Assembly: GCA_947453445.1 (NCBI GenBank)
Contig: CANGGP010000031.1
Coordinates: 1 to 38,276, forward strand
Reading direction: 5' to 3'
Source: Sphingobacteriaceae bacterium
Lineage (GTDB): Bacteria; Bacteroidota; Bacteroidia; B-17B0; Aurantibacillaceae
Length of the DNA stretch: 38,276 nt
Under the pieces are notes generated by a model. That model was not told the origin of the DNA and made no database searches. It saw only the letters and a program-made list of their open reading frames with translations. Positions 9,578-37,754 of the stretch are shown here, one piece after another. Made by a program: the position numbers and the translations under genes. Within the stretch, counting starts at the first letter, position 1. Each line of letters starts with the position of its first letter.

Positions 9578-9585
9578 TATTTTTG
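9578..9585 (+). promoter_or_regulatory. Putative -7 promoter box, 4 bases before the start codon
   Basis: TATTTTTG matches TAnnTTTG exactly and ends 4 bases before the ATG at 9590. If it works like characterised Bacteroidota promoters, transcription would begin at or next to the start codon, giving a leaderless mRNA. A good -33 TTG is not seen. Confidence 0.45.
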
Positions 9586-9589
9586 AAAT

Positions 9590-10336
9590 ATGCGTTTAAG
9601 AGGATTTGGCTTTGTTTTGTTGATGATGTTGACAAGCACCTACTTTTCACAAAAAAAAGTAAAGACCACGCCGCATAAAATTGTTTTGATAAAGAAAGAA
9701 TGGAATCTTGGCATCGGTGTTGGCCTCAATTCCAGTGTTGTTTACCTGCCGCGTAACTCATCAGGAAATAATGGTGCCGCCGGTAAAAGCATAATTTGTA
9801 CTTATGATAAGGGGAATTTCTTACGTTTTACCTTTGAATACAATAAATACATGTCACCTGATTTTGCACCCACCTGGTACAATGTAAGTGCTTCATCATT
9901 TGAATCGAATGTGCAATACATTACCCGCTTTATGGATGGTCATGGTTATTTGTATCCTTTGGCCGGTGTGAGTTATAATTTATTTAAAGGTTATTTTACC
10001 GGCAAGAATGATTATCTCAATCTACGTGCAGTTCACCAAGAAAGCACAACCGTTACCAGTAATTGGTTCGGTATAAATGTTGGTGTTGGCTATGATTATA
10101 ATTTAAAACATTCGGCATTTTACTTCATGTATAAAATGCGTGTGGGTTATACCGAAGGTTATAATCAGTGCAATATTCAAGACATTTGCATTTCTGTTGG
10201 TTACCGACTTCACTTGAGTGAAGCAAGTTTTAAGAAAGTTTTTCTTGGCCCAAGAAGCAGATATGCCTTACCCAAATCAAAACTCAAACCAAAAGTAAAA
10301 ACTAAACCGGCAACATCATCTACAGCCACCAATTAA
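9590..10336 (+). CDS. Exported outer-membrane-barrel-like protein, unknown function
   Basis: Predicted 248 residues with a signal peptide (about 1-20, ending near STYFSQ). The mature part is rich in Tyr, Phe, Gly and Asn with alternating hydrophobic patterns such as NLGIGVGLNSSVVYL and FGINVGVGYDYNL, typical of short beta-barrels in the outer membrane. The last 35 residues are different: Lys/Pro/Thr/Ala-rich with repeated K-x-K and no strand pattern. I cannot name a family. The stop lies 3 bases ahead of the antiporter gene, so the two are probably co-transcribed. Confidence 0.6.
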   Translation: MRLRGFGFVLLMMLTSTYFSQKKVKTTPHKIVLIKKEWNLGIGVGLNSSVVYLPRNSSGNNGAAGKSIICTYDKGNFLRFTFEYNKYMSPDFAPTWYNVSASSFESNVQYITRFMDGHGYLYPLAGVSYNLFKGYFTGKNDYLNLRAVHQESTTVTSNWFGINVGVGYDYNLKHSAFYFMYKMRVGYTEGYNQCNIQDICISVGYRLHLSEASFKKVFLGPRSRYALPKSKLKPKVKTKPATSSTATN

Positions 10337-10339
10337 CCT

Positions 10340-12496
10340 ATGTCGTCAGTGTCGGAGTATTTTTTTCAAGCCAATCATTTTCTCAATCAATACCTGCCAT
10401 TAAAAAATCCGGTACTAATTTTAGCACTTACCTTATTAATTATCCTTTTTTCACCTTTATTATTTAAGCGTTTTCGAATTCCGGGCATCATTGGCTTAAT
10501 TCTGGCAGGCGTTATCATCGGACCAAATTCATTGCACATCATTGAATCTACAAACAGTTTCGAATTGCTTTCAAAAACCGGTTTGTTGTACATCATGTTT
10601 TTGGCAGGTTTGGAAATCGACATGAATGAATTTGCACAAAACCGCAACAAGAGTCTTGTTTTTGGAGCACTCACATTTTTAATTCCAATTAGTTTGGGTT
10701 ATTTGGTTTGTATCCACATTTTTCATTTTTCATTTTGGTCGGCATTGTTATTGGCTAGTATGTTCAGTACCCATACATTGCTGAGTTATCCAATTGTTAG
10801 CAACATGGGTATTGTAAAAAACAGGGCGGTTCAAATAACATTTGGCGGCACCATCATCACCGATTCGGCTGTGCTTATTTTGTTGGGGGTGATCACACGC
10901 ATTGTTACAGGCGATGTAAACGGGGCCTACTGGTTCAAAATTGCCGTATCCCTCGCACTATTGGTTTTTTCTACATTGTATCTGTTGCCAAAAATTAGCC
11001 GGTGGTTTTTTAGAAACATCGAGGCGCAGGCCAGCTCCCATTATATTTTTGTTTTGGCCGTTGTTTTTATTTCAGGATTTTTAAGCGAATTAGCAGGTGT
11101 GGAACCCATCATTGGCGCGTTTTTAGCAGGATTGGGTTTAAATAAAGTAATCCCGCACAGTAGTATTTTAATGAATCGGGTTGTTTTCATCGGCAACACC
11201 TTGTTCATTCCTTTCTTTTTAATCAGTGCCGGTATGTTGGTTGATATTCACCTATTTTTTAAAGGCAGTGAGGCCCTTGTTTTTGCAGGCATTTTATCAG
11301 TGGTTGGGTTACTCACCAAATATTTTGCTGCTTGGTTAACAGCCTTGATTTATCAATACAACAAGTATGAACGCAATATTATTTTTGGCTTAAGTGTTTC
11401 GCATGCAGCAGCAACCTTGGCCATTATTAAGGTGGGATTCGACATTGGCCTTTTCGACCAAAATGTGGTAAATGCCACCATTATTCTCATTTTAATTTCA
11501 TGCTTGGTGAGTTCTTTTGTAACTGAGCGTGCTGCCCGAAAAATTGCAATTCAAGAAAAGGATTTTGTTAAAAAAACAAACGATAAAACCGAAAGAATTT
11601 TAATTCCTGTGAGCAATCCTGATAATATCCATCGTCTTATTGATTTGGCGCTGATATTAAAAGACCAAACATCAAATGAGCCTTTGTATCCCTTGTCGAT
11701 TGTTGAAGATGATGCCGAAGCCGACGAAAAGATAAACATTGTGCGAAAGGTTATTGAAGGGGTGGTTGAGCAAATTGCAAGTGGCGATAAAAAAGTTGAA
11801 GTGCTTAAAAAAGTTGATTTAAGCATCGTTGATGGCATTGTGCGAACGGCCAAAGCCTATAATATTACCGATATACTTATAAGTTATAAATCAAATCAAG
11901 GCGCCACGAATTTAATTTTCGGGAATGTTTCTGAAGGTCTTCTTAAAAAGTCGAAACAGTCCGTTATCATTTCAAAAATTTTACAACCCATCAGTTCTTT
12001 TAAAAGGGTAACCGTTGTTCTTTCACCAAATGCAGAATTAGAAAGTGGCTTTATGCGTTCGGTACAAAAAATTAATTCTGTAATCAAGCAATTGGGTAAC
12101 CAATCAAATATTTATGGAACAAAAAATACATTAAATGTCTTTGCCAATGTAATCAACGACAAAAAACATAATATTTACAACTACATCAGTAAAGAAGCAT
12201 TTAATGATGCCGATGATATACTGAACTCAAAAGCTGATGACCTTTTTATTTTCCTCAATGCCAGGGTTCAAACTATTTCTTATGATTATCATTTAGATGA
12301 AATGACCAAACGATTGAATAAAACAAGTGAATTTACAAGTTTCATTGTGTTTTACCCCGATATCAGCAGGGCCTTACAAGACGGGGCTTTTGGCGACATT
12401 GGTTCATCTTCGATTCCGAACAAATATGTGCAGGTAAAACAATTCACAGGAAAAATTACCGGCATTTTTAAGAAAGATAGTGAAGAAAACAATTAA
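10340..12496 (+). CDS. CPA2-family cation/proton antiporter with C-terminal UspA-like region
   Basis: Predicted 718 residues. The first about 395 carry some 12 membrane segments with Na+/H+ exchanger-type features: RIPGIIGLILAGVIIGP (about 46-62), LLYIMFLAGLEIDMNEF, and the ion-site helix GGTIITDSAVL (about 169-179), in which a single aspartate (Asp175) is preceded by Thr rather than a second Asp. KefB-like members of CPA2 also carry one Asp there. The remaining 320 residues are soluble and resemble tandem universal-stress-type domains (for example ERILIPVSNPDN and KRVTVVLSPNAELESGF); no RCK/TrkA-N nucleotide motif is seen. It likely exchanges Na+ or K+ for protons across the inner membrane under control of the cytoplasmic domain; the ion is not predictable. 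It ends 2 bases from the convergent tamB-like gene. Confidence 0.85.
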   Translation: MSSVSEYFFQANHFLNQYLPLKNPVLILALTLLIILFSPLLFKRFRIPGIIGLILAGVIIGPNSLHIIESTNSFELLSKTGLLYIMFLAGLEIDMNEFAQNRNKSLVFGALTFLIPISLGYLVCIHIFHFSFWSALLLASMFSTHTLLSYPIVSNMGIVKNRAVQITFGGTIITDSAVLILLGVITRIVTGDVNGAYWFKIAVSLALLVFSTLYLLPKISRWFFRNIEAQASSHYIFVLAVVFISGFLSELAGVEPIIGAFLAGLGLNKVIPHSSILMNRVVFIGNTLFIPFFLISAGMLVDIHLFFKGSEALVFAGILSVVGLLTKYFAAWLTALIYQYNKYERNIIFGLSVSHAAATLAIIKVGFDIGLFDQNVVNATIILILISCLVSSFVTERAARKIAIQEKDFVKKTNDKTERILIPVSNPDNIHRLIDLALILKDQTSNEPLYPLSIVEDDAEADEKINIVRKVIEGVVEQIASGDKKVEVLKKVDLSIVDGIVRTAKAYNITDILISYKSNQGATNLIFGNVSEGLLKKSKQSVIISKILQPISSFKRVTVVLSPNAELESGFMRSVQKINSVIKQLGNQSNIYGTKNTLNVFANVINDKKHNIYNYISKEAFNDADDILNSKADDLFIFLNARVQTISYDYHLDEMTKRLNKTSEFTSFIVFYPDISRALQDGAFGDIGSSSIPNKYVQVKQFTGKITGIFKKDSEENN

Positions 12497-12498
12497 GC

Positions 12499-15400
12499 TT
12501 ACTTCATTTTATTCCTATTCATAAAATCTCGCAAGCTGTTAAACTCTCGTCGGTAAAAAAATCCAAAACCCTGAGTGTAAGGGCCGCCTGCCGTGGTAAT
12601 TTGAGCACTTGTATTGGTTCGGTTAAAACCGGTGAGTTTGTAGCGGCCATCATCGGTAAGCTTATAATCAATCGTTACGTCGCCAATAAAATTGCCCGAA
12701 TTTCCGGCCTGGGTATTGTTCATGCCAAAATTTCCGTCTACACTCATTTTGTTATTCAAAAACTGCTTGCTAAGCGCCAAATCAACGCTCTCTTTGGTGT
12801 TTTGGCTGCCTGGTCGATAATTTAATCCCAGTTGTAAGTCCCTTAGGCCCGGTAAACCACCAAAGTATGAGTTTAAAAATCCGCTGATGCGATTACTTAA
12901 TAATTCACTACTGGTTGAGGCAGCAGCAGCTGTTACCCCGCCACCGTTAGCATTAAAAACTTGTGGCGTCACAAAACTTCTAAATAATAAAAACGAAAAC
13001 ACCTGACGATTTAACTCACCTTCGTCACTTAATACATTATTAATTCTAGCTTTTGCAGTGGCATCGATATTCGGAAAATCAAAGGCAAAGTTAATCATTG
13101 GAGAAAATAATTTACCCGACAACAACAATTTGCAATCTACAGCGTATCGGCTTTTATACACGCCGGTTGTGTCGTTTAACAAGGCTGCTACCGATGCCCT
13201 CTGCTTGTAACTCGTTGCTACATTTATGTCGGCATTAAGTGGATCACCATTCCATGATATGCTGCTGCCGGCCTCAATGTCAAACTTTTTATTGATCACA
13301 TGTTCAAGGGTAAATAAATAATCCCCGTTCGTGATTAAATAATCACCGGTCATTTCAAACTTACCCAGCGTGTTAATTTTTAAATTGATATTTCCTTGCC
13401 CTTGCGCATTTAACATGTCGCCATTTTGCTTATCCAAAATTATTTGAACCGAAGCATTTGGCGTGGCGCTAATTGATAAATCTAAATTAAATCCTGTAAA
13501 ATCTAACTCCTTTTTTACCTTGTTAGTGTCCTTTTTTACAAAGTGAACAAAGTCATCGTCTTCAATTTCATTCGGACCATCGAGTTGCATTACAAAACGC
13601 GAATTTTTTGTGGTGGTATCAAATATTTGCATACTCAAATTGTTTAAGTACCCGTATATACCCGCTCTCCCTGAGCTGTAAATTCTGCCGTAATAAAAAC
13701 TGTTTTCTTTCTCTGTGGTATTTAACACCAACATGTTTTTGTAATTAATGTCGTAATCAAGTTGAACTTTTTTAAACTTCGTATGAAATATGTTGCCATT
13801 TACGGTTCCTTGCGCGGCGGCTTTTGTGCCTTTTTCACGCAACAAGATGTCCGAAAACCTTATCTGATCAGGCATTACCTCTATGTCGCCACTCACGTTG
13901 TAAACCACATTGGTGTAATCTACTTTTAATTCAGTGTTAAATAATCTTAGTTTCCCATCTAATAAAAGATTTTCGGGTGACCCGTGAATTTTTAATTTCC
14001 CGCTCAAGTAACCGTTTTTAATGGTTAAAATATCGGTTAATATAGGATTCAATAATTTAATGTTCGCCGGATTTGCAATCAAATCAATGTCAATACAGTC
14101 AGGACGATTGTCGAGGAAGTAATTACCGTTAAATGCAATGTTTTTTATTTGATTACCAAATTCATCTTGTAAACCAAGTGATGTAAAACCATGTAAATTC
14201 AAATACTTGTTTTTTGTATTATAGGTCGAACTCAGCGATAATTCACCAACCAAATTGTCGTTCATTTTTAACCTTTGCAAATTCACATTGCCATCAATTG
14301 CAAAATGATTGTTTGGTTGCGATAAGTACAAATATCCGTTCATTTCACCTTCTACCTTTGCGTGAAATAATTTTAAGATGGGATTAAATTGCGCCAAATT
14401 GATGTGGTTGACTTTGAATTGTAAGCTGTCGTTTTCATGAATCGAAAATTCGCCATTCACCCCAATCGATTGGTTATTATGACTTACTTCTAGTTTTTGA
14501 ATCGCCAATCCATTTTTGCCAAAACTCAAGGCACTTAAATTTTCTTGTTTCCAAACACTATCATTGATGCATATTCTCAAACTGTCGTTGTACAATGCTG
14601 TTTGCAATTTGTCGAATATAATTCTTCCTTTTAATAAACCATTTGATAATGGGACGTGGTGATTATCCCAGTTTAATTGGTAAGATAAAAATTGATCAAG
14701 TGATTTTAAATTCACCATTAGTTGCTCAACACCAACACTGTCGCCAACTTTTACCGATTCAGCATTTACGTCACACACAACCGCCTTGTCGATTTGATTT
14801 AATTTTAAATTGAGTTGACGAATATCGAAGAGTTTAAAGCTCAGCAAGGTACTGGTAAAATCAAGATTCAATTTTTGATTCAACGCATTGAAATTGCCGC
14901 TAATTCGACTCCCTTTGCTCAGCATTAAGTCGGGTAATAATAAATCATGTATGGTTTGGAAATCTTTTATGTTGATGTCGAACGTAAATTGATCACTAAT
15001 GATTTTATTCAGCTTTTCAATTTTAAAATAGCTTGGATAATATTGTGCCAGTATGTTCTGCGCGGCAATTCCGAAATCACCCAATTTATATTGACCGGCT
15101 ATGTTCGCATTAAAATAGGCCGATTTTAGTGTAATACTTTTAGTGTCTGCTGTTTGATTTAAGTCTAAGTTAAACCGATTTAATTTGTAAGTTTTTGTTT
15201 TTGTTTTATAAACTGAATTGTCAAAATTAATTTGTCCGCTTAATTTATCAATGTTGTCGCCTGAAATATTGATGAATAACTGAGATGAAAATTCTCCACT
15301 ATCAAGCAAACTGGTTAAATGGAGCTTGTTTAAATTTAATCGGTTGATGGAAGAAATGAAATACATTTCAGGCACTTGCCTTTTAAAGTTAACACTGCCG

Positions 15401-16938
15401 TTAAAGTCAAAATTGGCATTCGTGTCTAAACAAGAAAAATAACCATTAAACACTTTTTCATTTAAGCTGCCGTTCAATTTTATTTTACTGTAATTGTAGC
15501 CTTGAATCTGAATGTTGTCAATATGTCCTTTTGCTTCGCTGTTAATACTGTTTAAATCTAATCCCTCTCCCTTTAATTCCATATTCATCGAAATGGCATT
15601 AAAATCATTTAGTCCCAATAGTTTTCCCAAATCAAAATACTCAGTTGAAATCTTGCCTTGGTAATGTATATTTTTGTTTTTATCCCCAAGTTGAATCGAT
15701 AGTTTTGAGTCAATCAAACCCAATTCAGAAGTGAATATGCCGTAAGTGGTAAAGTCATTTAATAATCCGTCGAACTTGCCCTTATAGCTTGTGGTACCAA
15801 GTTTTTGGATCGAAGGTGGGAGATTTAAATAAGTGGTTTGTTCACCGTTCATAATCGGAAATTGCACCAAATCTTTGTAATTGGTTGAAAGAACTTTGGC
15901 CTCGAAATGCAAAAAACTATTGCTTAAATCCGGCAAGCCGGTTAAACTCAGGTTGCCCTTAAATTGCGTGTAATCTCTGTACTTTAGTTTAAATTTTTTC
16001 AAATTAAAATCACTCACGGTACCTGAAATATGACCCGAAAATTGTAATTCTTCATTGAACTTGTTTAAGGCCGGTGCGAAATAAGCAATGTCGCCAAAAT
16101 TTAATTTGGTAGAGTCTTCAAATTTCGAAACAATGTGAATTTTATTTATAAAATCTGTATAGTCTTGCCAATGCCCGTAATTAAAATACAAATTGGCTTT
16201 AATCAATGTTTTGTCGGTTTCCAATCGCAAATGCTCGGCCTGCAGTTGACGTGAACTTAAGTGTATACCTGCAGTAAGTTCTTTTAAATGAAAACCTGAT
16301 TTTTCCTTTAAACTTAAGTTTTTAATTTCAAAAATAAATTTGTCTTTGGCAATAATGGGATATAAAATTTGCCCATTTACAGCACTAAGTTCAAGGTTGT
16401 TGTAATTAATATTGTTGGGGAGCTTTACCGTATCGTTCAAGTTTTTGTATGCGAAACATACATTTTGAAGCGTTATTTTTTTTATGCGAATGTTCCAATT
16501 TGAAGGTGCTGTATCACTGTTGTTATCAGATTTAAAATAATCGGCTATAAATTGATAATTGTAATTGCTGTCGTTTTTAGCCAATTTTATTCTGCTCACT
16601 GCGTTTAAAATTCGAATATCATTGAAATATATTTTTTTCTTTTTGTAATCAAAAGTGTGTATTGCTAATCCCAAATCTCCGGCAAATAGTGTATCACCTT
16701 TTTGATCTTTTATCATTAGTCCTTTTAATTCAGCATTTTTGAAAAAACGAATAGCAATTTTATCAATTTTGATTTCCGTATTCATTTGTCCACTCAAATA
16801 AGCACTAACACGCTGCGCTAACCATGTTTGAAATGCAAAACTTTGAATGGCAAAATACAAGGCAAAGCATAGGATTATCAAGGCAACAAAAAGTAGCCCG
16901 ACCGACTTAAAAAATATTCTGCTAATTTTGCCTAACAT
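12499..16938 (-). CDS. tamB: TamB-like translocation/assembly module protein (DUF490)
   Basis: Predicted 1479 residues from ATG 16938; an in-frame TTG at 16950 would add four residues and is less likely. One N-terminal membrane anchor (about 13-33) is followed by about 1400 residues of repeating short beta-strands of the AsmA/TamB type, which form a long hydrophobic groove, and a C-terminal DUF490 block (about 1210-1400, with SISWNGDPLNADINVATSYK and the conserved ending region around FSFLLF). TamB-like proteins bridge inner and outer membrane and take part in outer-membrane protein assembly or phospholipid transport. The length is typical for Bacteroidota homologues. No tamA or BamA-family gene is adjacent. 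It is divergent from tsaD, with 50 bases between the starts, an arrangement I know from other Bacteroidota genomes. Confidence 0.88.
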   Translation of the reverse strand: MLGKISRIFFKSVGLLFVALIILCFALYFAIQSFAFQTWLAQRVSAYLSGQMNTEIKIDKIAIRFFKNAELKGLMIKDQKGDTLFAGDLGLAIHTFDYKKKKIYFNDIRILNAVSRIKLAKNDSNYNYQFIADYFKSDNNSDTAPSNWNIRIKKITLQNVCFAYKNLNDTVKLPNNINYNNLELSAVNGQILYPIIAKDKFIFEIKNLSLKEKSGFHLKELTAGIHLSSRQLQAEHLRLETDKTLIKANLYFNYGHWQDYTDFINKIHIVSKFEDSTKLNFGDIAYFAPALNKFNEELQFSGHISGTVSDFNLKKFKLKYRDYTQFKGNLSLTGLPDLSNSFLHFEAKVLSTNYKDLVQFPIMNGEQTTYLNLPPSIQKLGTTSYKGKFDGLLNDFTTYGIFTSELGLIDSKLSIQLGDKNKNIHYQGKISTEYFDLGKLLGLNDFNAISMNMELKGEGLDLNSINSEAKGHIDNIQIQGYNYSKIKLNGSLNEKVFNGYFSCLDTNANFDFNGSVNFKRQVPEMYFISSINRLNLNKLHLTSLLDSGEFSSQLFINISGDNIDKLSGQINFDNSVYKTKTKTYKLNRFNLDLNQTADTKSITLKSAYFNANIAGQYKLGDFGIAAQNILAQYYPSYFKIEKLNKIISDQFTFDINIKDFQTIHDLLLPDLMLSKGSRISGNFNALNQKLNLDFTSTLLSFKLFDIRQLNLKLNQIDKAVVCDVNAESVKVGDSVGVEQLMVNLKSLDQFLSYQLNWDNHHVPLSNGLLKGRIIFDKLQTALYNDSLRICINDSVWKQENLSALSFGKNGLAIQKLEVSHNNQSIGVNGEFSIHENDSLQFKVNHINLAQFNPILKLFHAKVEGEMNGYLYLSQPNNHFAIDGNVNLQRLKMNDNLVGELSLSSTYNTKNKYLNLHGFTSLGLQDEFGNQIKNIAFNGNYFLDNRPDCIDIDLIANPANIKLLNPILTDILTIKNGYLSGKLKIHGSPENLLLDGKLRLFNTELKVDYTNVVYNVSGDIEVMPDQIRFSDILLREKGTKAAAQGTVNGNIFHTKFKKVQLDYDINYKNMLVLNTTEKENSFYYGRIYSSGRAGIYGYLNNLSMQIFDTTTKNSRFVMQLDGPNEIEDDDFVHFVKKDTNKVKKELDFTGFNLDLSISATPNASVQIILDKQNGDMLNAQGQGNINLKINTLGKFEMTGDYLITNGDYLFTLEHVINKKFDIEAGSSISWNGDPLNADINVATSYKQRASVAALLNDTTGVYKSRYAVDCKLLLSGKLFSPMINFAFDFPNIDATAKARINNVLSDEGELNRQVFSFLLFRSFVTPQVFNANGGGVTAAAASTSSELLSNRISGFLNSYFGGLPGLRDLQLGLNYRPGSQNTKESVDLALSKQFLNNKMSVDGNFGMNNTQAGNSGNFIGDVTIDYKLTDDGRYKLTGFNRTNTSAQITTAGGPYTQGFGFFYRREFNSLRDFMNRNKMK

Positions 16939-16988
16939 TGTGGTAGCCAATAAAGATAAAAGAAATAAAGCAGGCCTTTCATAAAAAA

Positions 16989-18020: not shown

Positions 18021-18046
18021 AAAAAGGCCGCCCTTTTGAGGCAGCC
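18019..18046 (-). terminator. Rho-independent terminator for the CsgG/TolB-like gene
   Basis: On the minus strand the arm GGCTGCC (18046-18040) pairs with GGCGGCC (18032-18026): seven pairs including one central U-G wobble, with a 7-base loop, followed by seven T. On the plus strand the central pair would be a C-A mismatch, so the hairpin is asymmetric in favour of the minus strand. It lies 14 bases beyond the stop of the minus-strand gene, and its T-run covers the tsaD stop codon. Confidence 0.75.
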
Positions 18047-18059
18047 CTTGGGTTTTAGA

Positions 18060-19169: not shown

Positions 19170-19190
19170 GATTGTTGGTTTTTGTTTGAG

Positions 19191-19198
19191 CAAAATTA
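19191..19198 (-). promoter_or_regulatory. Putative -7 promoter box of the CsgG/TolB-like gene
   Basis: Read on the minus strand this is TAATTTTG, an exact TAnnTTTG match, 21 bases before the ATG at 19169. It supports the shorter start chosen for that gene. No convincing -33 TTG was found at the usual spacing. Confidence 0.4.
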
Positions 19199-19331
19199 AG
19201 GCGACATCTGGGCAGGGAATAATTGAATTTTGCGAGCCTTTGCAAGGGATTTGCAATATTTCGATGTAGCAGAATTGGAACATTTGTTCGACGGCAAAGT
19301 TTAATTATTAGCAAGTATTTGCTTTGCTGTT

Positions 19332-19361
19332 TTGCGATTTTTGCAAATATTGGTAGCTTTA
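19332..19361 (+). promoter_or_regulatory. Putative promoter of ftcD (-33 TTG, 19 bases, -7 TAGCTTTA)
   Basis: TTG at 19332-19334 is separated by exactly 19 bases from TAGCTTTA at 19354-19361, which matches TAnnTTTG except for the last base. The expected transcription start is near 19366, about 23 bases before the chosen ATG. It also shows why the TTG at 19332, which opens the reading frame, is a promoter element and not a start codon. Confidence 0.5.
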
Positions 19362-19388
19362 AAAATTGATTTTTACTTAAAGTTTAAA

Positions 19389-25019: not shown

Positions 25020-25020
25020 T

Positions 25021-27070: not shown

Positions 27071-27189
27071 CTTGATAAAAGTTTAACAACGAAAGTAGGT
27101 TTAAAATCACCGTCAAAAATTTTGAGGGCAATGGATTTTAAACATGACTTTGTTTATTATAAGCTATAAGGACAAAAAAGGGAAAAGTT

Positions 27190-27606
27190 TCAAGAAATGT
27201 GTTTTTCCAATTCGTTTTTTAGCATGATAAGATGGGCCGGTTTGATGCCAAATACACGCATATGGGCAAGTTCGCCATCTTTGTAGGTGATAAAAAACTG
27301 GCCTTTTTTTGATACACTTACTTTTTGAATATCGATAAAATACCATTCTTTGCTGTAAAAAAGGGAGTATTTGATGAGGATTTTTTCTTTGTATACCAAA
27401 GCAAATGGATTGAGTGCAAACCAGAGGCTTTGAAACGACACCACGCAGGTTGGCATGAGCATAACAAAACCAAGTGGATTCATTTGTTTGAATAATTGGT
27501 AGTTAACCAAAATTAACACGATGCTAAGGGCAGTGGTCGTCAACAATAAAAGTGGGTGTCGTTCGATGTTGTAAAGAGGCGGTATAAAAGGTGTAGAGTT
27601 TTTCAC
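27190..27606 (-). CDS. Small membrane protein with PH-like domain, unknown function
   Basis: Predicted 138 residues from a GTG at 27606; no ATG is available before the membrane part and a stop lies four codons upstream. Two hydrophobic segments (about 19-38 and 44-64) form a hairpin anchor. The remaining 70 residues (LVYKEKILIKYSLFYSKEWY, DIQKVSVSKKGQFFITYKDG, then a C-terminal helix) have the strand-helix layout of bacterial PH-like domains. I do not recognise a named family. A -7-like box with one mismatch (TAACTTCG on the minus strand, 27618-27611) ends four bases before the start codon. The gene stands apart from the exb cluster (119 bases). Confidence 0.6.
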   Translation of the reverse strand: MKNSTPFIPPLYNIERHPLLLLTTTALSIVLILVNYQLFKQMNPLGFVMLMPTCVVSFQSLWFALNPFALVYKEKILIKYSLFYSKEWYFIDIQKVSVSKKGQFFITYKDGELAHMRVFGIKPAHLIMLKNELEKHIS

Positions 27607-27707
27607 AAGGCGAAGTTAAAAATTAAAAGTTCAAATAAGCCTGAAGTTTCGCATTTTTCTTTAAACTTGTTTGTTGGGGCAAAGGCATTTGCTTAATTAC
27701 TTGTAAC

Positions 27708-27736: not shown

Positions 27737-27753
27737 ATTTAATACCAAAAACA

Positions 27754-29241: not shown

Positions 29242-29282
29242 TTTCCCCTAAAAAATTAGAACATAATTAGTATTTTGCTGTG

Positions 29283-31757: not shown

Positions 31758-31760
31758 TAG

Positions 31761-31768
31761 TAATTTTG
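31761..31768 (+). promoter_or_regulatory. Putative -7 promoter box, 4 bases before the start codon
   Basis: TAATTTTG matches TAnnTTTG exactly and ends four bases before the ATG at 31773, implying a leaderless or nearly leaderless transcript. It lies in the 15 bases between the receptor stop and the next start, so the saccharopine dehydrogenase-like gene may have its own promoter in addition to read-through. Confidence 0.45.
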
Positions 31769-31772
31769 ATGT

Positions 31773-33095
31773 ATGACAAAAATACTTGTGATAGGAGCCG
31801 GACGTTCGGCAACCTCCTTAATAGATTATTTATTTGAACATGCAGCAATGTATCATTGGCAACTAACGGTTGCCGATATGGATATACGTTTGGCGCAATC
31901 GAAAGTACCTGCCAATAGTAATGCCGTGGCCATTGGTTTTGATATTAACGATAAGGCACAACGCCAAGCCACTATACAACAACATGATTTTGTGATTTCG
32001 ATGTTGCCTGCTTTTATGCATGGTGATGTAGCGCGAGATTGTGTGCAATTTGGCAAAAGTATGGCCACTGCCAGTTATGTGAGTGCCGATATGCGGGCAT
32101 TGGACGAAGCTGCCAAACAAAAGGGATTGATCTTAATTAATGAATGTGGATTGGATCCTGGATTAGATCATGCCAGCGCGATGAAAATGATTGATGACAT
32201 TCATGCGCAAGGTGGAAAAATAAAAACATTTAAATCTTATTGTGGTGGATTGGTAGCGCCGCAAAGCAACGACAATCCTTGGGGTTATAAATTTAGTTGG
32301 AATCCCAGAAACGTTGTATTGGCCGGTCAAGGCACTGCACAATACTTAGAAGATGGCTCATTAAAATTTATTCCTTACAACCGTTTATTTACGCAAACCG
32401 ATAGCATTGAGGTAACAGGTTATGGCGCATTTGACGCTTATGCAAATCGCGATAGCATTGGTTACAAAGAGATATACCACTTAAAGGATGTGCAAACCAT
32501 GTTACGCGGAACCTTAAGACAGAAAGGTTATTGTAAGGCCTGGAATGTGCTTTTAAAATTGGGTTTAACGGATGATTCATCCAAAATTTCAAATGCCGAT
32601 GCCTTGACATATGCAGGGCTTGTGAGAGCATTTTTGCCGACCTCAAAATTAAATATTGTTGATCAAGTTAAAACCATTATGGGCCAAGATTGGGATGCAG
32701 AAGTGGAGCACAAACTAAATTGGTTGGAGATTTTTTCAGATAAAAAAATCAAGTTAAAAGAAGGTAGTCCGGCGCAAATTTTACAAGCCTTATTGGAAGA
32801 AAAATGGTTGTTAAAACCGGAGGATAAGGACATGATTGTGATGCAACATCAAATCAGTTATGAAGACAATCAGCAGCAACAAAAACACATCAGTTCTTCA
32901 TTGGTTTTGGAAGGAAAAAATCAAAATCATACCGCCATGGCATTAACGGTAGGTTTACCATTGGCAATTACTGTGAAAAATTATTTGAGCAAAAAGTTTA
33001 CATTGAGTGGTGTTCAAATACCAACGGTTTCGGCTATTTACAAGCCAATGTTGGATGAATTGGAACAGATGGGGATTCAATTTATTGAGCAATAA
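31773..33095 (+). CDS. Saccharopine dehydrogenase-family oxidoreductase
   Basis: Predicted 440 residues. An N-terminal Rossmann fold starts with KILVIGAGRSATSLIDYL (3-20), the dinucleotide-binding loop GAGRSA, and continues to DFVISMLPAFMHGDVARDCV. The C-terminal catalytic domain begins near NECGLDPGLDHASAMKMIDD, a signature of saccharopine dehydrogenase/reductase of the glutamate-forming type. Enzymes of this group interconvert saccharopine and aminoadipate semialdehyde plus glutamate, in lysine breakdown or the aminoadipate pathway. Related reductases act on other substrates, so the family is sure and the reaction is probable. No lysine-ketoglutarate reductase gene is adjacent. Cytoplasmic; the stop overlaps the A-run opposite the terminator of the convergent gene. 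Confidence 0.85.
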   Translation: MTKILVIGAGRSATSLIDYLFEHAAMYHWQLTVADMDIRLAQSKVPANSNAVAIGFDINDKAQRQATIQQHDFVISMLPAFMHGDVARDCVQFGKSMATASYVSADMRALDEAAKQKGLILINECGLDPGLDHASAMKMIDDIHAQGGKIKTFKSYCGGLVAPQSNDNPWGYKFSWNPRNVVLAGQGTAQYLEDGSLKFIPYNRLFTQTDSIEVTGYGAFDAYANRDSIGYKEIYHLKDVQTMLRGTLRQKGYCKAWNVLLKLGLTDDSSKISNADALTYAGLVRAFLPTSKLNIVDQVKTIMGQDWDAEVEHKLNWLEIFSDKKIKLKEGSPAQILQALLEEKWLLKPEDKDMIVMQHQISYEDNQQQQKHISSSLVLEGKNQNHTAMALTVGLPLAITVKNYLSKKFTLSGVQIPTVSAIYKPMLDELEQMGIQFIEQ

Positions 33096-33114
33096 AAAAG
33101 CGGCCGAAGCCACT
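33094..33114 (-). terminator. Rho-independent terminator with UUCG tetraloop
   Basis: On the minus strand AGTGGC pairs with GCCGCT (six pairs, one U-G wobble) around a TTCG loop closed by C-G, followed by six T. This is the stable cUUCGg hairpin. It begins six bases beyond the stop of the minus-strand gene at 33120, and its T-run covers the stop codon of the convergent dehydrogenase gene. Confidence 0.8.
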
Positions 33115-33119
33115 CTCAA

Positions 33120-33845
33120 TTATCTGCCGCCCATGGCGCGCATTTTTTCTTGAAATTCTTTGAATGTAAGCATCGTGTAACCTTCGGTATTTGGAACAAA
33201 AACCGAATCGTCAATGACATTGGTTGATACTTCAGTGGCGATCATCACACTTTTTACTTCCATACCTTGCATGTTCATGGTCGATTCCATGGCAAGCGGC
33301 ATCCCTTTTAATTCACTTAAGTCAACCGACATACCTCTGCGGTTGGCACGACGCACAGCGCCGCTCATTGGTTTTAATTTATCGGTATACCAAACGATGG
33401 TTTGACGTTCTTTTTTATCCTTATCGATTGAAGTAATGATGGCTTTGTAACATTCATAACCCGCTATGGTACGCTTGTCGTTGATGTATTCAATTTTTGG
33501 TTTTGATTCGGGGGCTTTGTTTTTATCCATACCATCCATTTCTTCTTTGGTGGCAGTGTATCCTGTTTTATTGCCCATTGATTCGCTCAAATTGGTGATT
33601 AGTTTGCCGTCAAAGTAAACCACATTCGAAAACATCATGCTGCTGGTTTCTGATTTTGATCTTTCGCCTTTCATGTAGGTCACAATTTCAATCTCTCCAA
33701 AAGCAGCATACTCAGCCGGCAGCCCTTCGGCTTTAATTGACATTTTAACGGTGTAATTATCGGTGTTTTGACCGCTTGATGCAGGTGTTTGGGCTTTTAA
33801 AAGCCCTAAACACAATACACTAAAAAGCATGAAATGTTTGATCAT
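33120..33845 (-). CDS. Exported DUF4412/GLPGLI-like protein
   Basis: Predicted 241 residues with a signal peptide (about 1-19, ending LLKAQ). The mature protein has a beta-rich pattern with Met-rich stretches: MKGERSKSETSSMMFSN, NDKRTIAGYECYKAIIT (about 147-163), then TIVWYTDKLKPMSG, and a late VFVPNTEGYTMLTFKEF. A conserved cysteine follows the IAGYE motif. This fits the group of small secreted Bacteroidota proteins named DUF4412 or GLPGLI-like, whose function is unknown. It is the last gene of a three-gene minus-strand group and shares its motif order with the gene upstream. A strong terminator follows. Confidence 0.68.
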   Translation of the reverse strand: MIKHFMLFSVLCLGLLKAQTPASSGQNTDNYTVKMSIKAEGLPAEYAAFGEIEIVTYMKGERSKSETSSMMFSNVVYFDGKLITNLSESMGNKTGYTATKEEMDGMDKNKAPESKPKIEYINDKRTIAGYECYKAIITSIDKDKKERQTIVWYTDKLKPMSGAVRRANRRGMSVDLSELKGMPLAMESTMNMQGMEVKSVMIATEVSTNVIDDSVFVPNTEGYTMLTFKEFQEKMRAMGGR

Positions 33846-33892
33846 AATCTGATTTTTTGTTGAAGTTTAAAATAAATATTAATGATGCGGTA

Positions 33893-34582
33893 TTACTGTA
33901 AATCCTTAATAAACTGTGCCATTTCTTCTTTGCTGATGATTTTCATCGAAGCAGGAATTTCAAAAGTTTGGTCAGGCACTTCAACATGGCTGTATGATTT
34001 AGCAGCAAAGTGCAATTCCATGCCCATCTTCTTTAAGCGGTAATCGAGTAACATCCCTTTAACAGGAGCATAAGGGGTTAACATGTTACAATCTTCCATT
34101 CCGAGATCTTTTGTATACCAAGCTTCGAACTTTGAAAAAGGTGCATCGAGCATGCTAACATTAATTTTATAACACTTCATACCAAGAATATCCTTGGTTT
34201 CGGTGGTTTCTTCAATTTTAATTCTGTAGTCTAAATTTTCTTTGGCCAAATCTTTTTCATTCTCAATACAAGCCTGTTTCACATTCATGAACTTAACCGA
34301 TTGCGACATGGTTTTACTTGTATTATCGCCCAAAATGGTCATGTTGAATAAGCCCATCACGCTCATTTCGATGGCGAATTTTTTCTTCTTAAACTTAAAA
34401 GTGGCTGAGTTTGGCGCAAAGCCATACAATGGGTGGTTGGGATCAACGCCTTTGGTGTCATATTCAATGATACCCTCTTCATCTTTACTCTTGCGAAAAG
34501 CATCATCACATGAAGTAAAAAGCAATATCGCCAGAAGCGCGATTAGCTTGGTGGTGTTGATTATATAGCGTTTTGCAGTCAA
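33893..34582 (-). CDS. Lipoprotein, DUF4412/GLPGLI-like, apparent paralogue of the next gene
   Basis: Predicted 229 residues from a TTG at 34582: no ATG occurs before residue 70 and a stop lies eight codons upstream, so a rare start codon is needed. The lipobox is FTSC with Cys25 as the lipidated residue. The mature protein carries TTETKDILGMKCYKINVSML, FEAWYTKDLGMEDC, KGMLLDYRLKKMGMELHFAA, and a C-terminal QTFEIPASMKIISKEEMAQF. The same order, with G-x-x-CYK, then WYT, then GM-x-L, then V/FxxP and an acidic-aromatic ending, is seen in the gene at 33120, so the two are probably paralogues. Function unknown; periplasmic or outer-membrane attached. Confidence 0.65.
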   Translation of the reverse strand: MTAKRYIINTTKLIALLAILLFTSCDDAFRKSKDEEGIIEYDTKGVDPNHPLYGFAPNSATFKFKKKKFAIEMSVMGLFNMTILGDNTSKTMSQSVKFMNVKQACIENEKDLAKENLDYRIKIEETTETKDILGMKCYKINVSMLDAPFSKFEAWYTKDLGMEDCNMLTPYAPVKGMLLDYRLKKMGMELHFAAKSYSHVEVPDQTFEIPASMKIISKEEMAQFIKDLQ

Positions 34583-34609
34583 AAAATCGATCTTTCTTTT
34601 TCGTTAATA

Positions 34610-34984
34610 TTAATAATGCATGCTTACACTCTTCTCAACAGTTTGACCTTCTTCTAACTTAATAACGCTTAAGCCGGAGAATTTTTTACCACCAATGTAT
34701 TTGGTAGCGTAAATATCATAAATAGCCGGTAATTTAAAAGTGAATTTGATGGCACCATCGGCATCGCTGGTACCATTGGTTCTTAAATCGGCAGTATCAA
34801 CACGTTTGCCATCTGCGCTTTTTACCAAGGCATAAAGCATCACGTATGAATTGCCAACAGCATTACCTGCCGAATCAACGCATTTAATAGAAGCAATGCA
34901 AGAAGTGTCCTTCTGACAAGAGCTCAAGCCCATAAAAAAACCGGAAACCAAAAAAATACTTAAAGCCAGTGCAATTAATTTCAT
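34610..34984 (-). CDS. Small lipoprotein with transthyretin-like beta-sandwich
   Basis: Start set at ATG 34984, which yields a proper lipoprotein signal (MKLIALALSIFLVSGFFMGL, then SSC with Cys23); the longer frame starts 13 residues earlier without a leader. Predicted 124 residues. The mature part (ASIKCVDSAGNAVGNSYVML, then NGTSDADGAIKFTFKLPAIY, DIYATKYIGGKKFSGLSVIK) has the strand order of small Ig-like or transthyretin-like modules such as CarboxypepD_reg. No catalytic residues are apparent. It is first in the minus-strand group, 27 bases ahead of the lipoprotein at 33893, and divergent from the cyclophilin gene. Confidence 0.68.
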   Translation of the reverse strand: MKLIALALSIFLVSGFFMGLSSCQKDTSCIASIKCVDSAGNAVGNSYVMLYALVKSADGKRVDTADLRTNGTSDADGAIKFTFKLPAIYDIYATKYIGGKKFSGLSVIKLEEGQTVEKSVSMHY

Positions 34985-35099
34985 TACTTTTAATAATCTA
35001 AATTTACATTTTTCGTGCTTCAATATTGCTCAATAATCGAAATAAAGAAGGCGATCATCTATACTATAAGGTAACAAATATAAAATAATTATGCATTAA

Positions 35100-35927
35100 A
35101 TGAAAAAATTAATGATTATTTCCAAATTGCTTGTGTTTTTAAGCTTTTTAGGTCATTCGCAAACCTTGAGTAAAGAAACAATCGTGATGCAAACCACCTA
35201 TGGCACGATTAAAATGAAGCTTTACGAAGAAACACCGCTACACAAGGCAAATTTTTTAAAATTGGCCCGATCCAAATTTTACAATAAAACCCTTTTTCAT
35301 CGGGTGATAGGTGCATTTATGATTCAAGGCGGTGATCCACTCAGTAAAAAAGCCAAAGCCGGCGATAGTTTAGGTCATGGTGATTTGGGTTACACGGTGC
35401 CCGCTGAAATCAACGAGAAATTAATTCATAAACGCGGAGCGCTTTGTGCGGCGCGCGAAAGTGATGCTATCAATCCTTTGTTTGCCTCAAGCGCTTCACA
35501 ATTTTATATTGTGGTTGGAAAAAAACGGAGCATGGAAGACTTGAAAAAATATGAAGACCGCATCAATAAAGCAAGTTATGCCAATGCCGGCCGTTTGTTT
35601 TTGTTAACGGATGAAGGGGCGGCATTAAAAAAATTGTACAACCGTTTAAAAGAGGAACAAAAACTTGATAGTGCCGACATGGTGAATGCGCAAATTGAAG
35701 CAGCCATCAAGACTCGCAATGCAGCCGTGAAAACATATTCCTTTAACCCAATACAAATTGAACAGTACACAAGTGTAGGCGGTACTCCACATTTGGATGG
35801 CACTTACACTGTGTTTGGTGAAGTGATTGAAGGCATGGAAGTGGTTGAATTTATCTCAAAAGTAAAAACCGATAAGCGCGATAGGCCATTGGAAGACATA
35901 AGAATTAAAGTGAAGGTGATTGACTAA
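35100..35927 (+). CDS. Secreted cyclophilin-type peptidyl-prolyl isomerase with internal insertion
   Basis: Predicted 275 residues with a signal peptide (about 1-21, ending SQT). The cyclophilin fold starts at TTYGTIKMKLYEETPLHKAN (32-51); LFHRVIGAFMIQGGDP (65-80) holds the catalytic Arg68 and the FMIQGGD core, and SQFYIVVG (133-140) corresponds to the SQFFI substrate-binding strand. A charged helical insertion of about 85 residues (141-225) then interrupts the domain before GTPHLDGTYTVFGEVIEGME. It should speed prolyl isomerisation in the periplasm. Insertions at this place are seen in other Bacteroidota cyclophilins; here the insert contains a Lys/Glu-rich helix pair (KKLYNRLKEEQKLDS). Confidence 0.88.
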   Translation: MKKLMIISKLLVFLSFLGHSQTLSKETIVMQTTYGTIKMKLYEETPLHKANFLKLARSKFYNKTLFHRVIGAFMIQGGDPLSKKAKAGDSLGHGDLGYTVPAEINEKLIHKRGALCAARESDAINPLFASSASQFYIVVGKKRSMEDLKKYEDRINKASYANAGRLFLLTDEGAALKKLYNRLKEEQKLDSADMVNAQIEAAIKTRNAAVKTYSFNPIQIEQYTSVGGTPHLDGTYTVFGEVIEGMEVVEFISKVKTDKRDRPLEDIRIKVKVID

Positions 35928-36136
35928 GGGATATTGAAATAAATGGACAAACAGAATGCAGCGGAAAGCGCCCAACAAAGAATGTATTATCGAAAGGCGG
36001 GTGTGGGCAACTAACAAACTGAATTGATTTTATCCACAATAATTATACGGCATTTGTTTGGTAAATAGTCATTTGAGAACAGAAAAATAAATTGATTAAA
36101 CCTTTTAAATAAAACAACATCTAAAAAGAAAAGACT

Positions 36137-36601
36137 ATGAAGAAATTAATTTTGATATCGGGTTTAATCATGTCACTTGTGACTATTGTAAGTGCGCAAG
36201 ATCAAAACAAGCCAATTTTAAAAGGTGCAAAAAATCACCAAAACATGCCAGTTGAAGAACGCGCAAAAAACAATACCATAAAAGCAGAAAAGGAATTGGC
36301 CTTAACAGCCGATCAAAAAATAAAATGGGAAGCCGCCAGCCTAGAACGCATGAAGCAGAACGAACCGCTTAAACAAAAAATGCAAGGTTCAACAACGCCT
36401 GATGAACGTAAAAGTTTGCGTCAACAAATGCGTGCCAACAACCAAAAATTTGAACAAACAGTGTTGACATTTTTAACACCTGATCAAAAAACAAAATTCG
36501 AAGCCATGAAAAAAGCAAAGCCTGGCAAAGGAAAAGGGCACGGGCATCGTGAACAAAAAGGTGATGTTGCCCCGGCACCAAGCGAAATCAATAAAAATTA
36601 A
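36137..36601 (+). CDS. Exported LTxxQ-motif (Spy/CpxP-like) protein
   Basis: Predicted 154 residues with a signal peptide (about 1-20, ending VSAQ). The mature protein is almost entirely charged helix. It contains two LTxxQ-like motifs, LALTADQKIKWEAA (about 55-68) and FLTPDQKTKFEAM (about 114-126), spaced as in Spy/CpxP-type periplasmic chaperones, and ends in a Gly/Lys/His-rich tail (GKGKGHGHREQ) that might bind metal. Spy proteins hold unfolded envelope proteins as cradle-shaped dimers; the relation here is by motif, not overall identity. The gene sits behind the cyclophilin gene (209 bases), which fits an envelope-folding role. No adjacent two-component system is visible. Confidence 0.65.
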   Translation: MKKLILISGLIMSLVTIVSAQDQNKPILKGAKNHQNMPVEERAKNNTIKAEKELALTADQKIKWEAASLERMKQNEPLKQKMQGSTTPDERKSLRQQMRANNQKFEQTVLTFLTPDQKTKFEAMKKAKPGKGKGHGHREQKGDVAPAPSEINKN

Positions 36602-36607
36602 AAAGCA

Positions 36608-36961
36608 CTATAAGGATTGTAAAACTTTTTCAGCTTCAGCAATGGTGTTTTTATTGTTGCCGATAAATATTTGATCACCCACAATAATTACAGGACGTTT
36701 AAGAAAAGTATACTCATTTAAAATGAGGCTTTTGAATTCTTTTTCGGATGTTGGTTTAAGGGGCAGGGTTTTGTATTTGAGCGCCACGCGACTAAACAGC
36801 GCTTCATACGAACCTGCCTTTTTTTTCATTTCATCCAATTGAACTTCAGTAATGCTTTCAGTTTTTATATCTTGAAAAATAAAAGCCTTGTTTTTTAAAT
36901 CCAATTGTTGAATGATGCGTTGACAAGTGCTGCAGGATGATAAAAAGTAGATTTTTTTCAT
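36608..36961 (-). CDS. ArsC/Spx-like thioredoxin-fold protein
   Basis: Start chosen at ATG 36961 because it directly follows a strong promoter and begins MKKIYFLSSCSTCQRI; an in-frame TTG adds eight residues. Predicted 117 residues, the normal length for the ArsC/Spx/YffB family. The CxxC motif is Cys10-Ser-Thr-Cys13 in the first strand-loop, and FLKRPVIIVGDQIFIGN (about 84-100) is the conserved RP-containing segment. Members act as glutaredoxin-dependent arsenate reductases or as transcription regulators (Spx); YffB-like proteins have no firm role. No arsenic-resistance genes are adjacent, so arsenate reduction should not be assumed. Cytoplasmic. Confidence 0.82.
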   Translation of the reverse strand: MKKIYFLSSCSTCQRIIQQLDLKNKAFIFQDIKTESITEVQLDEMKKKAGSYEALFSRVALKYKTLPLKPTSEKEFKSLILNEYTFLKRPVIIVGDQIFIGNNKNTIAEAEKVLQSL

Positions 36962-36964
36962 GAC

Positions 36965-36993
36965 CAAATGTACATAAACTTTCAAGCAGCCAA
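36965..36993 (-). promoter_or_regulatory. Promoter of the ArsC/Spx-like gene (-33 TTG, 18 bases, -7 TACATTTG)
   Basis: On the minus strand TTG (36993-36991), an 18-base spacer and TACATTTG (36972-36965), an exact TAnnTTTG match, end three bases before the ATG at 36961. This is the best promoter match in the window, and it implies a leaderless transcript. Confidence 0.65.
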
Positions 36994-37083
36994 TAAAATA
37001 AACATGGCCAAAGATTTAAGATAATTTTGCTTAAAAGGTTGAATTATGGTCATGAGTGGTAAGAGGAATCGCGATTTATTCTA

Positions 37084-37091
37084 TATTTTTG
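37084..37091 (+). promoter_or_regulatory. Putative -7 promoter box, 3 bases before the GTG start of the ABC ATPase gene
   Basis: TATTTTTG matches TAnnTTTG exactly and ends three bases before GTG 37095. No -33 TTG at normal spacing is seen. It helps choose the GTG at 37095 rather than the GTG at 37056 as the start. Confidence 0.45.
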
Positions 37092-37094
37092 AAG

Positions 37095-37754
37095 GTGATC
37101 GCACTCAAAAATATTCGCAAATCTTACCAATTGGCCGAAACCTCGTTTGAGGTGTTAAAGGGCATCGACTTAAAAATTAATGCCGGTGAATTTGTATCCA
37201 TCATGGGCTCTTCGGGTTCGGGAAAATCAACCTTGTTAAACATTTTGGGTTTATTAGATAATTACGATTCAGGTGATTATTTTTTGGATGGGCAATTGGT
37301 AAAAGATTTATCACAAAAACGCTCAGCTCAATTGCGCAACCAATTTTTGGGTTTTGTTTTTCAGTCCTTTAATTTATTGTCGTTTAAAAACGCCATGGAA
37401 AACGTGGCCTTGCCATTGTATTACCAAAAGGTGTCGCGCAAAGAGAGAAACAAAATTGCTTTAGGCTATTTAGATAAAATGGGACTGTTGGACTGGGCCA
37501 ATCATTTGCCATCGGAATTAAGCGGGGGACAAAAACAGAGGGTGGCCATTGCGCGTGCATTGATTGCCAATCCGAAAGTGATTTTTGCCGACGAGCCCAC
37601 AGGCGCTTTGGATTCACAAACTTCATTAGAGGTAATGGATATTTTTAAAGACATCAATCAACAAGGCAAAACCATTGTGATTGTAACACACGAAAATGAC
37701 ATTGCAGCGATGACACATCGAACAATACGTTTGAAGGATGGGGTGATTGTTTGA
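37095..37754 (+). CDS. MacB/LolD-type ABC transporter ATP-binding protein
   Basis: Start chosen at GTG 37095, giving MIALKNIRKSYQ, the typical start of this family; the GTG at 37056 would add 13 odd residues. Predicted 219 residues. Walker A is GSSGSGKST (38-46), the Q-loop FVFQSFNLL, the signature LSGGQKQRVAIARAL, and Walker B VIFADEPTGALD, followed by the H-loop in VTHEND. The Q-loop and signature are those of the MacB/LolD/FtsE group, which drive mechanotransmission rather than solute flux, for example in peptide, macrolide or lipoprotein export. The permease partner follows at 37868. The gene is divergent from the ArsC/Spx-like gene. Confidence 0.9.
   Translation: MIALKNIRKSYQLAETSFEVLKGIDLKINAGEFVSIMGSSGSGKSTLLNILGLLDNYDSGDYFLDGQLVKDLSQKRSAQLRNQFLGFVFQSFNLLSFKNAMENVALPLYYQKVSRKERNKIALGYLDKMGLLDWANHLPSELSGGQKQRVAIARALIANPKVIFADEPTGALDSQTSLEVMDIFKDINQQGKTIVIVTHENDIAAMTHRTIRLKDGVIV

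Follow-up and report, generated by a model that had tools for sequence, protein, structure and literature searches.

Results

Boxes adjoining start codons in the window

The window, by which we mean the whole 38,276-nucleotide stretch analysed here, comes from an uncultured relative of Bacteroides and Flavobacterium and carries TAnnTTTG boxes immediately upstream of several start codons (Table 1). A sequence-only reading had reported exact boxes ending 4, 4, 3 and 3 bases before the starts at 9590, 31773, 36961 and 37095, and one-mismatch boxes ending 4 bases before those at 8028 and 27606; all were located at these coordinates. In seven Pfam scans of window genes, no family was assigned to the genes at 9590, 27606 and 36137. 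The NADP-binding domain encoded at 31773 begins at residue 4 and thus fixes that start codon tightly.

Table 1. Boxes and the genes that they precede in the window.
Feature	Position	Strand	Remarks
Exact -7 box TATTTTTG	9578..9585	+	Ends 4 before start 9590
Gene with predicted leaderless mRNA	9590..10336	+	248 aa; no Pfam family
Exact -7 box TAATTTTG	31761..31768	+	Ends 4 before 31773; within 15-base gap behind codirectional upstream gene
Saccharopine dehydrogenase-family gene, predicted leaderless mRNA	31773..33095	+	Pfam PF16653 and PF03435
Exact -7 box TACATTTG	36965..36972	-	Ends 3 before start 36961
ArsC-family gene; leaderless mRNA possible, less sure	36608..36961	-	Pfam PF03960 from residue 5
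Exact -7 box TATTTTTG	37084..37091	+	Ends 3 before GTG start 37095
ABC transporter ATPase gene	37095..37754	+	GTG start
Second exact box TAATTTTG	37022..37029	+	d = 65 from 37095; candidate leadered promoter for the same gene
One-mismatch box TAGTTTAG	8016..8023	+	Ends 4 before start 8028
DUF7793 gene; candidate leaderless mRNA	8028..8444	+	
One-mismatch box TAACTTCG	27611..27618	-	Ends 4 before GTG start 27606
Gene	27190..27606	-	138 aa; GTG start; no Pfam family

Over the whole window TAnnTTTG is not over-represented (63 matches against 61.8 expected); the oddity of the boxes is their position, not their number. With d as the number of bases separating box and start codon, four exact boxes fall at d = 3–5 before the 32 window starts, whereas shuffling gives a mean of 0.099 and equalled the observed count in 0 of 2000 shuffles, in agreement with the earlier estimate of well under one exact match by chance in that slot. 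Because the slot was picked with the sequence already in view, this test is post hoc. Such boxes are, in addition, more frequent in the window than in its own genome outside it, where 914 genes have 21 (P ~0.008).

Box position in the genome

For one third of the genome (1.24 Mb, 945 genes, after 33 of the 978 called genes with fewer than 100 bases upstream had been left out), we carried out the scan of start codons against shuffled controls that the sequence-only reading had proposed, taking the start codons from orthology or from the calls of a home-made script. Exact boxes peaked at d = 3–5, where 24 were found against a shuffled mean of 2.85; 16 lay at d = 4 (1.00 when shuffled) and one at d = 0–2 (shuffled mean 2.50). 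Internal in-frame ATGs, used as a control, had 2 boxes at d = 3–5 (1973 ATGs, 438 kb). At the level of sequence, the peak among 945 genes upholds the earlier description of these transcripts as likely leaderless.

The boxes at d = 3–5 sit before genes able to lead a transcription unit: they precede 13 of 256 divergent genes and 1 of 214 genes with a codirectional neighbour less than 15 bases away, and the gene at 31773 is itself codirectional with a 15-base gap. This distribution bears on a rival idea, namely that the box is no promoter but acts as a signal for translation or simply reflects the base composition around starts. Such a signal would fit the reliance of Bacteroidetes on upstream base context instead of Shine-Dalgarno sites (PMC6847099), but it should recur inside operons, contrary to the counts just given; shuffling, moreover, recovers only the 2.85 boxes noted above, and the box lies at a different distance in other clades' orthologs of 31773 (see below). 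We regard this idea as scarcely credible.

Shine-Dalgarno sites precede 8 of the 945 genes, compared with 7.0 in shuffles. Their absence had been taken as support for leaderlessness, for which it is uninformative because it is genome-wide and includes leadered genes. We estimate the leaderless share at ~14% (9–22%) of exact-box promoters, or 13% (7–19%) without the window. The leaderless type is therefore a minority in this genome, about one exact-box promoter in seven, and the earlier phrase "a sizeable share of mRNAs" was an overstatement. A first estimate (13 boxes in 348 genes, 438 kb) had been inflated by the window and was superseded by the larger sample.

Features of the putative promoters

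Among the 24 listed exact boxes at d = 3–5, 23 read TAHHTTTG, G being rare at both n positions; TAHHTTTG is the refined -7 consensus given in PMC6847099. An AT-rich block near -18 is common to these boxes and leadered promoters, the AT share 6–10 bases before the box being 85% in the former and 81% in the latter; for 22 boxes within coding sequence it is 71%. No clear -33 element was seen when a TTG peak was sought upstream of boxes at d = 3–7 (33 from this genome, 59 from relatives), and the -33 element TTTG is weak in PMC6847099 too. Many -7 elements of Flavobacterium johnsoniae lie 4 or 5 nt from the transcription start site, with G at -5 (PMC6847099).

A loss of the upstream A signal would be expected at leaderless genes because the upstream bases would not be in the mRNA. 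Such a loss looked evident in the pooled set of this genome and its relatives, A standing at -3 in 22 of 63 versus 152 of 272 cases, but the difference was absent from this genome plus ten families (19 of 45 versus 69 of 144, p = 0.61), and for that reason the signal is not used as support.

Conservation among orthologs

Ortholog rows were retained if identity was at least 38%, the alignment began no later than residue 25, a start codon lay nearby and the upstream sequence did not duplicate that of another row. Four of the six starts in the earlier reading have a box that persists among orthologs. At 9590, 11 of the 15 remaining rows have an exact box at d = 3–7 and 12 have one with at most one mismatch. 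At 27606, every one of the 11 orthologs shows a box at d = 3–7 that has one mismatch or none, seven of these boxes being exact; 8 of the 11 additionally match with one mismatch at d = 10–14, none of them exactly there. Boxes with no more than one mismatch likewise stand at d = 3–7 in all six orthologs of 37095, three of them being exact. For 31773, the box is kept at d = 3–7 in the window's own clade and lies at d = 15–22 in other clades. Conservation is lacking for the box at 36961, with 0 of 28 orthologs exact and 1 of 28 carrying a one-mismatch box at d = 3–7, and no ortholog of 8028 was found in the loci searched (0 rows remaining).

Judged by box position, the saccharopine dehydrogenase orthologs are split between the same two spacing states as the class as a whole. 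Rows dropped from this set comprised 22 with duplicate upstream sequences, 2 whose upstream sequence was shorter than 60 bases and 2 in which the start was unaligned; 14 of 84 rows (5 mid, 9 other) were left out of the tree.

The GTG start is kept in 11 of 11 orthologs found at 27606 and in 6 of 6 at 37095. In this genome plus ten families, GTG starts account for 5 of 45 genes with exact boxes at d = 3–5 versus 69 of 1395 (p = 0.077), and for 13 of 132 versus 61 of 1308 when one mismatch is allowed (p = 0.020). The enrichment in this set is weak, and the case for it rests on a few conserved families.

Spacing across Bacteroidia

In our own genome, 27 boxes at d = 8–14 form a shallow trough. 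There is a preference for d = 4, 10, 13 and 16, for which the in-frame stop codon (TAA or TAG) that the box itself supplies at these spacings is partly responsible. Spacings in the class were counted phase-matched, with TAHHTTTG. Summed over 29 Bacteroidia genomes, the counts were 4036 at d = 4–5 and 3601 at d = 19–20, and they were lower, 2579 and 2608, at d = 1–2 and d = 10–11. The count at d = 4–5 exceeds that at d = 10–11 in 29 of 29 genomes and that at d = 1–2 in 28 of 29. The effect in our own genome alone is modest (129, 171, 151 and 137 at d = 1–2, 4–5, 10–11 and 19–20). These counts replaced the ratio of TANNTTTGN{3,5}ATG to N{0,2} in 41 genomes, a measure blurred by the dominant coding background and by the inclusion of TGATG at d = 0. 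They suggest that leaders in Bacteroidia are either about 0 nt or at least 11 nt long and seldom between, a pattern that would be new here.

Discussion

Our results support a model in which the boxes probably belong, as -7 elements, to housekeeping promoters of the sigma-ABfr type that would give leaderless mRNAs. The prediction follows from the finding that such promoters start transcription 4–5 nt after the box (PMC6847099). If RNA polymerase does so here, a box ending 3–5 nt before the start would place the 5' base of the mRNA at the first base of the ATG or GTG, within about one base, and the ribosome would have to begin translation at a start codon lying at the very 5' end. It is from box position that we infer both the real 5' ends and the translation of these predicted mRNAs. 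The trough at intermediate spacings could be explained if leaders of roughly 4–10 nt were poor for initiation.

Real boxes could nonetheless contribute little if most mRNA came from upstream promoters with ordinary leaders and leaderless mRNAs were minor or poorly translated. The second exact box before 37095, at d = 65, is consistent with such an arrangement, as are possible read-through at 31773, 15 bases behind a codirectional gene, and the few leaderless mRNAs in published Bacteroidetes transcriptomes (PMC9723704, PMC7366714). However, the spacing has been kept across long divergence at 9590, 27606, 31773 and 37095 and intermediate spacings are avoided, which together point to selection on the leaderless product, and we consider a mainly upstream origin unlikely. 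It is less likely still, to the point of being highly improbable, that the starts were called too far upstream and that the mRNAs made from these boxes have short leaders of the ordinary kind. Although the starts come from a home-made script or orthology and not from protein data, the Pfam domain begins at residue 4 in the product of 31773 and at residue 5 in that of 36961, and a guanylate kinase whose gene has a box at d = 3 likewise has its domain from residue 4. In nine other sampled genes with boxes at d = 3–5 that were scanned for domains, most domains begin too late to decide the start.

Beyond the leaderless promoters themselves, a bolder reading is conceivable, if rather doubtful. The leaderless start in Bacteroidia may be a discrete state that has long been maintained and is rarely bridged by intermediates; in some families (the genomes of f23, f24, f25 and part of f19) it is perhaps the commonest single promoter-to-start spacing. 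Since transcript and start codon would share their first base, the choice of ATG or GTG would fix the initiating nucleotide (ATP or GTP), and a conserved GTG might be kept for transcription, not translation. 

If the two-state spacing holds across the class, box position could help gene finders to fix start codons. It would also offer a natural contrast for studying start-codon choice by Bacteroidetes ribosomes, in that the same ortholog, judged by its box, would be approximately leaderless in one clade and have a leader of ~11–18 nt in neighbouring clades.

Leaderless mRNAs have already been measured in the same phylum. Flavobacterium psychrophilum has the TAnnTTTG box at -12 to -5 and some mRNAs mapped as leaderless, but these amount to 5.5% of mRNAs (890 CDSs with a transcription start site; PMC9723704), a mapped figure with which our ~14%, a box-based share of exact-box promoters, is not directly comparable. 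F. johnsoniae shares the -7 element and its distance of 4–5 nt to the start site, yet 87% of its leaders exceed 10 nt, and leaderlessness is, according to the authors, not the reason why its Shine-Dalgarno sites are missing (PMC6847099). Bacteroides thetaiotaomicron has the same -7 element, with ~3.7% of 5' UTRs below 10 nt (PMC7366714). A two-state spacing is not among the results in the available portions of either PMC6847099 or PMC7366714. Two computational studies likewise read a promoter signal ~10–12 bp before the start as leaderlessness (PMC3160421, PMC5397173); the former, which works with TANNNT as its model, differs in classing a large number of genes from Bacteroidetes as atypical, and the latter suggests that Bacteroidetes use leaderless mRNA, ribosomal protein S1 or both. 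The FCB group has been described by AT-rich non-canonical ribosome-binding sites (PMC9581028), and Bacteroidetes ribosomes do not recognise Shine-Dalgarno sites (PMC10783764). In Mycobacterium tuberculosis, too, the start codon can stand at the 5' end and GTG starts are allowed, but leaderless genes make up 26% of those with a primary transcription start site, the sigma factor and promoter are different, and Shine-Dalgarno sites are also used (PMC3898074). Promoters that touch the start codon are thus a known arrangement, which, from box positions, looks more widespread in Bacteroidia than published counts suggest.

Boxes before start codons in the window and its genome

The exact TAnnTTTG boxes that the sequence-only reading had claimed before four genes, named here by start-codon position, were all found (Table). 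Its one-mismatch boxes before 8028 and 27606 (the latter of unknown function) are also present, both at d = 4, where d counts the bases that separate a box from the start codon. The motif is not enriched in the window overall, with 63 matches compared with 61.8 expected. At d = 3–5, four exact boxes precede the 32 window starts against a shuffled mean of 0.099, and at least four were reached in 0 of 2000 shuffles. Because this slot was picked post hoc, the genome-wide test weighs more. The start codons of 31773 (saccharopine dehydrogenase family) and 36961 (ArsC family) are hardly in doubt, since the Pfam domains of the two proteins start as early as residue 4 and residue 5, respectively.

Table. 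Exact TAnnTTTG boxes close to start codons in the window
Feature	Position	Strand	Placement
Exact TAnnTTTG box	9578-9585	+	d = 4, before 9590
Exact TAnnTTTG box	31761-31768	+	d = 4, before 31773
Exact TAnnTTTG box	36972-36965	-	d = 3, before 36961
Exact TAnnTTTG box	37084-37091	+	d = 3, before 37095

From the genome (3.72 Mb, 153 contigs), 60 segments of 20 kb were combined with the window into a 1.24-Mb sample, in which genes were called by a codon-usage script blind to upstream sequence. Before the 945 genes counted, exact boxes (dinucleotide-shuffle means in parentheses) numbered 1 at d = 0–2 (2.50), 24 at 3–5 (2.85), 11 at 6–7 (1.81), 27 at 8–14 (6.37), 85 at 15–33 (17.49) and 45 at 34–60. 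The scan of start codons against shuffled controls thus bore out a positional peak at d = 3–5; d = 4 alone held 16 boxes against 1.00 in shuffles. Internal in-frame ATGs lacked this peak, with 2 boxes at d = 3–5 for 1973 ATGs in the first 438 kb. Boxes at d = 3–5 preceded 13 of 256 divergent genes but only 1 of 214 genes with a codirectional neighbour less than 15 bases upstream, a contrast that is expected promoter behaviour. The block 6–10 bases upstream of the box is 85% AT at d = 3–7 boxes and 81% at leadered promoters, compared with 71% before boxes inside coding sequence (22 boxes). The trough at intermediate spacings is shallow in this genome. Its boxes show a preference for d = 4, 10, 13 and 16, which is due in part to TAA or TAG in the box forming an in-frame stop at those spacings.

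After background subtraction, d = 3–5 boxes make up 14% (bootstrap 9–22%) of exact-box promoters at d = 3–60, or 16% (9–25%) under an alternative background and 13% (7–19%) without the window. The sequence-only reading had proposed that a sizeable share of mRNAs is leaderless; judged by the boxes, this share would be a minority, and the window is locally enriched in such boxes (4/31 vs 21/914 elsewhere in the genome; Fisher p = 0.007). Missing Shine-Dalgarno sites, which had been taken as support, say nothing for leaderlessness because they are lacking genome-wide (8/945 vs 7.0 shuffled).

Conservation among orthologs

All 11 orthologs of 27606, several of them closely related to one another, have a GTG start and, at d = 3–7, a box that is exact (7 orthologs) or differs by one base; in 8 of them a further match, always with one mismatch, lies at d = 10–14. 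The same holds at d = 3–7 for all six orthologs of the ABC transporter ATPase 37095, each with a GTG start (exact in 3). The boxes at these conserved GTG codons end some 3–4 bases before them. For 9590, 12 of 15 orthologs have such a box, exact in 11, and none has an exact box in any of four control ranges. The box before 36961 is recent or due to chance, since its orthologs had an exact box at d = 3–7 in 0/28 cases and a one-mismatch box in 1/28. In relatives' loci L042-L070, many congeners lack a box upstream of the ArsC-family gene and have a common block just before the ATG (TCAAATTTAACCAAACTTTT or similar). No ortholog of 8028 was found among the loci searched.

The 84 distinct upstream regions orthologous to that of 31773 show a split in spacing, with exact boxes at d = 4–7 in 15, d = 8–14 in 2 and d = 15–22 in 31. 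When one mismatch was admitted in regions with no exact box, 22 were near (d = 3–7), 5 mid, 48 far (d = 15–30) and 9 other. A quick protein tree, in which two long branches were flagged, was built from the 70 rows classed as near or far. The near/far label required 3 changes on it compared with 18.8 in shuffles (0/500 gave so few), and a single clade of 23 that includes the window's own gene held 21 of the 22 near rows.

In the relatives, 56 gene clusters have four or more members. GTG predominates as the start codon (≥67%) in four of these clusters, and in three of the four most members carry an exact or one-mismatch box at d = 3–5. Across our genome and ten other families, GTG is weakly enriched among starts with d = 3–5 boxes, whether exact (5/45 vs 69/1395; p = 0.077) or with at most one mismatch (13/132 vs 61/1308; p = 0.020). 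PMC3898074 describes leaderless mRNAs as strictly dependent on ATG in E. coli, whereas ATG and GTG are used similarly in M. tuberculosis. Conserved GTG at genes with such boxes may therefore be regarded as a lead; a coupling to the initiating nucleotide is speculation.

Spread through the class Bacteroidia

The 80 nearest loci come mainly from MAGs labelled only to phylum or class. With the saccharopine dehydrogenase cluster excluded, they hold 1 exact box at d = 0–2, 52 at 3–7 (including 30 at d = 4, which represent 13 gene clusters), 13 at 8–14 and 133 at 15–33. The corresponding counts for 495 genes from ten other Bacteroidia families were 2, 29, 8 and 33, with a d = 3–5 share of 28% (17–41%), or 39% (22–77%) under the alternative background. 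The whole genome of G032 (family f9; 65% GC) has 57 boxes at d = 3–5 vs 9 at d = 0–2; among 100 listed of its 295 matches at d = 0–30, 33 lie at d = 3–7, 16 at 8–14 and 29 at 15–20. Here an AT-rich -7 box persists in a GC-rich genome with almost no chance background. A small sample from a congener (G001, 155 genes) showed no clear peak (2 at d = 0–2, 3 at d = 3–5).

Phase-matched whole-genome counts, independent of gene calling, totalled 2579 at d = 1–2, 4036 at 4–5, 2608 at 10–11 and 3601 at 19–20 over 29 Bacteroidia genomes. The d = 4–5 count exceeded that at 10–11 in 29/29 genomes, at 1–2 in 28/29 and at 19–20 in 19/29; our genome ranks 17th by excess per Mb, in mid-list. Leaderless-type promoters may be very common in G096 (f23; 48, 163, 59 and 78 in the same four slots), G169 and G088 (f19), G100 (f24) and G126 (f25), because their d = 4–5 counts are about twice those at 19–20 or more. 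For the remaining 89 genomes sampled from the phylum, the totals were 4450 at d = 4–5 vs 4062 at d = 1–2. About half of this excess comes from one family outside the class (f38, 6 genomes; 248 vs 61), which differs in this from most other families there.

Proposed mechanism and known systems

Boxes sit at d = 3–5 ahead of unit-leading genes, are conserved at four named genes and, across the class, leave a trough. In F. johnsoniae, many -7 elements lie 4 or 5 nt from the transcription start site, with G at -5 (PMC6847099). Given that spacing, a box at d = 4 would make the start codon's first base the start site as well, and transcription from it would yield an mRNA beginning with that base. From these sequence patterns we infer that leaderless mRNAs exist and are translated from their 5'-terminal codon. 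Leaders of about 4–10 nt would probably be selected against because they would be unsuited to either way of initiating.

Neither the two-state spacing nor its class-wide occurrence came up in a literature search without most subscription journals and bioRxiv preprints. Leaderless mRNAs in this phylum are themselves a known kind, since they have already been mapped. In F. psychrophilum they account for 5.5% of the mRNAs from 890 CDSs (PMC9723704). In B. thetaiotaomicron, about 3.7% of 5' UTRs are shorter than 10 nt (PMC7366714), and in F. johnsoniae 87% of leaders exceed 10 nt (PMC6847099).
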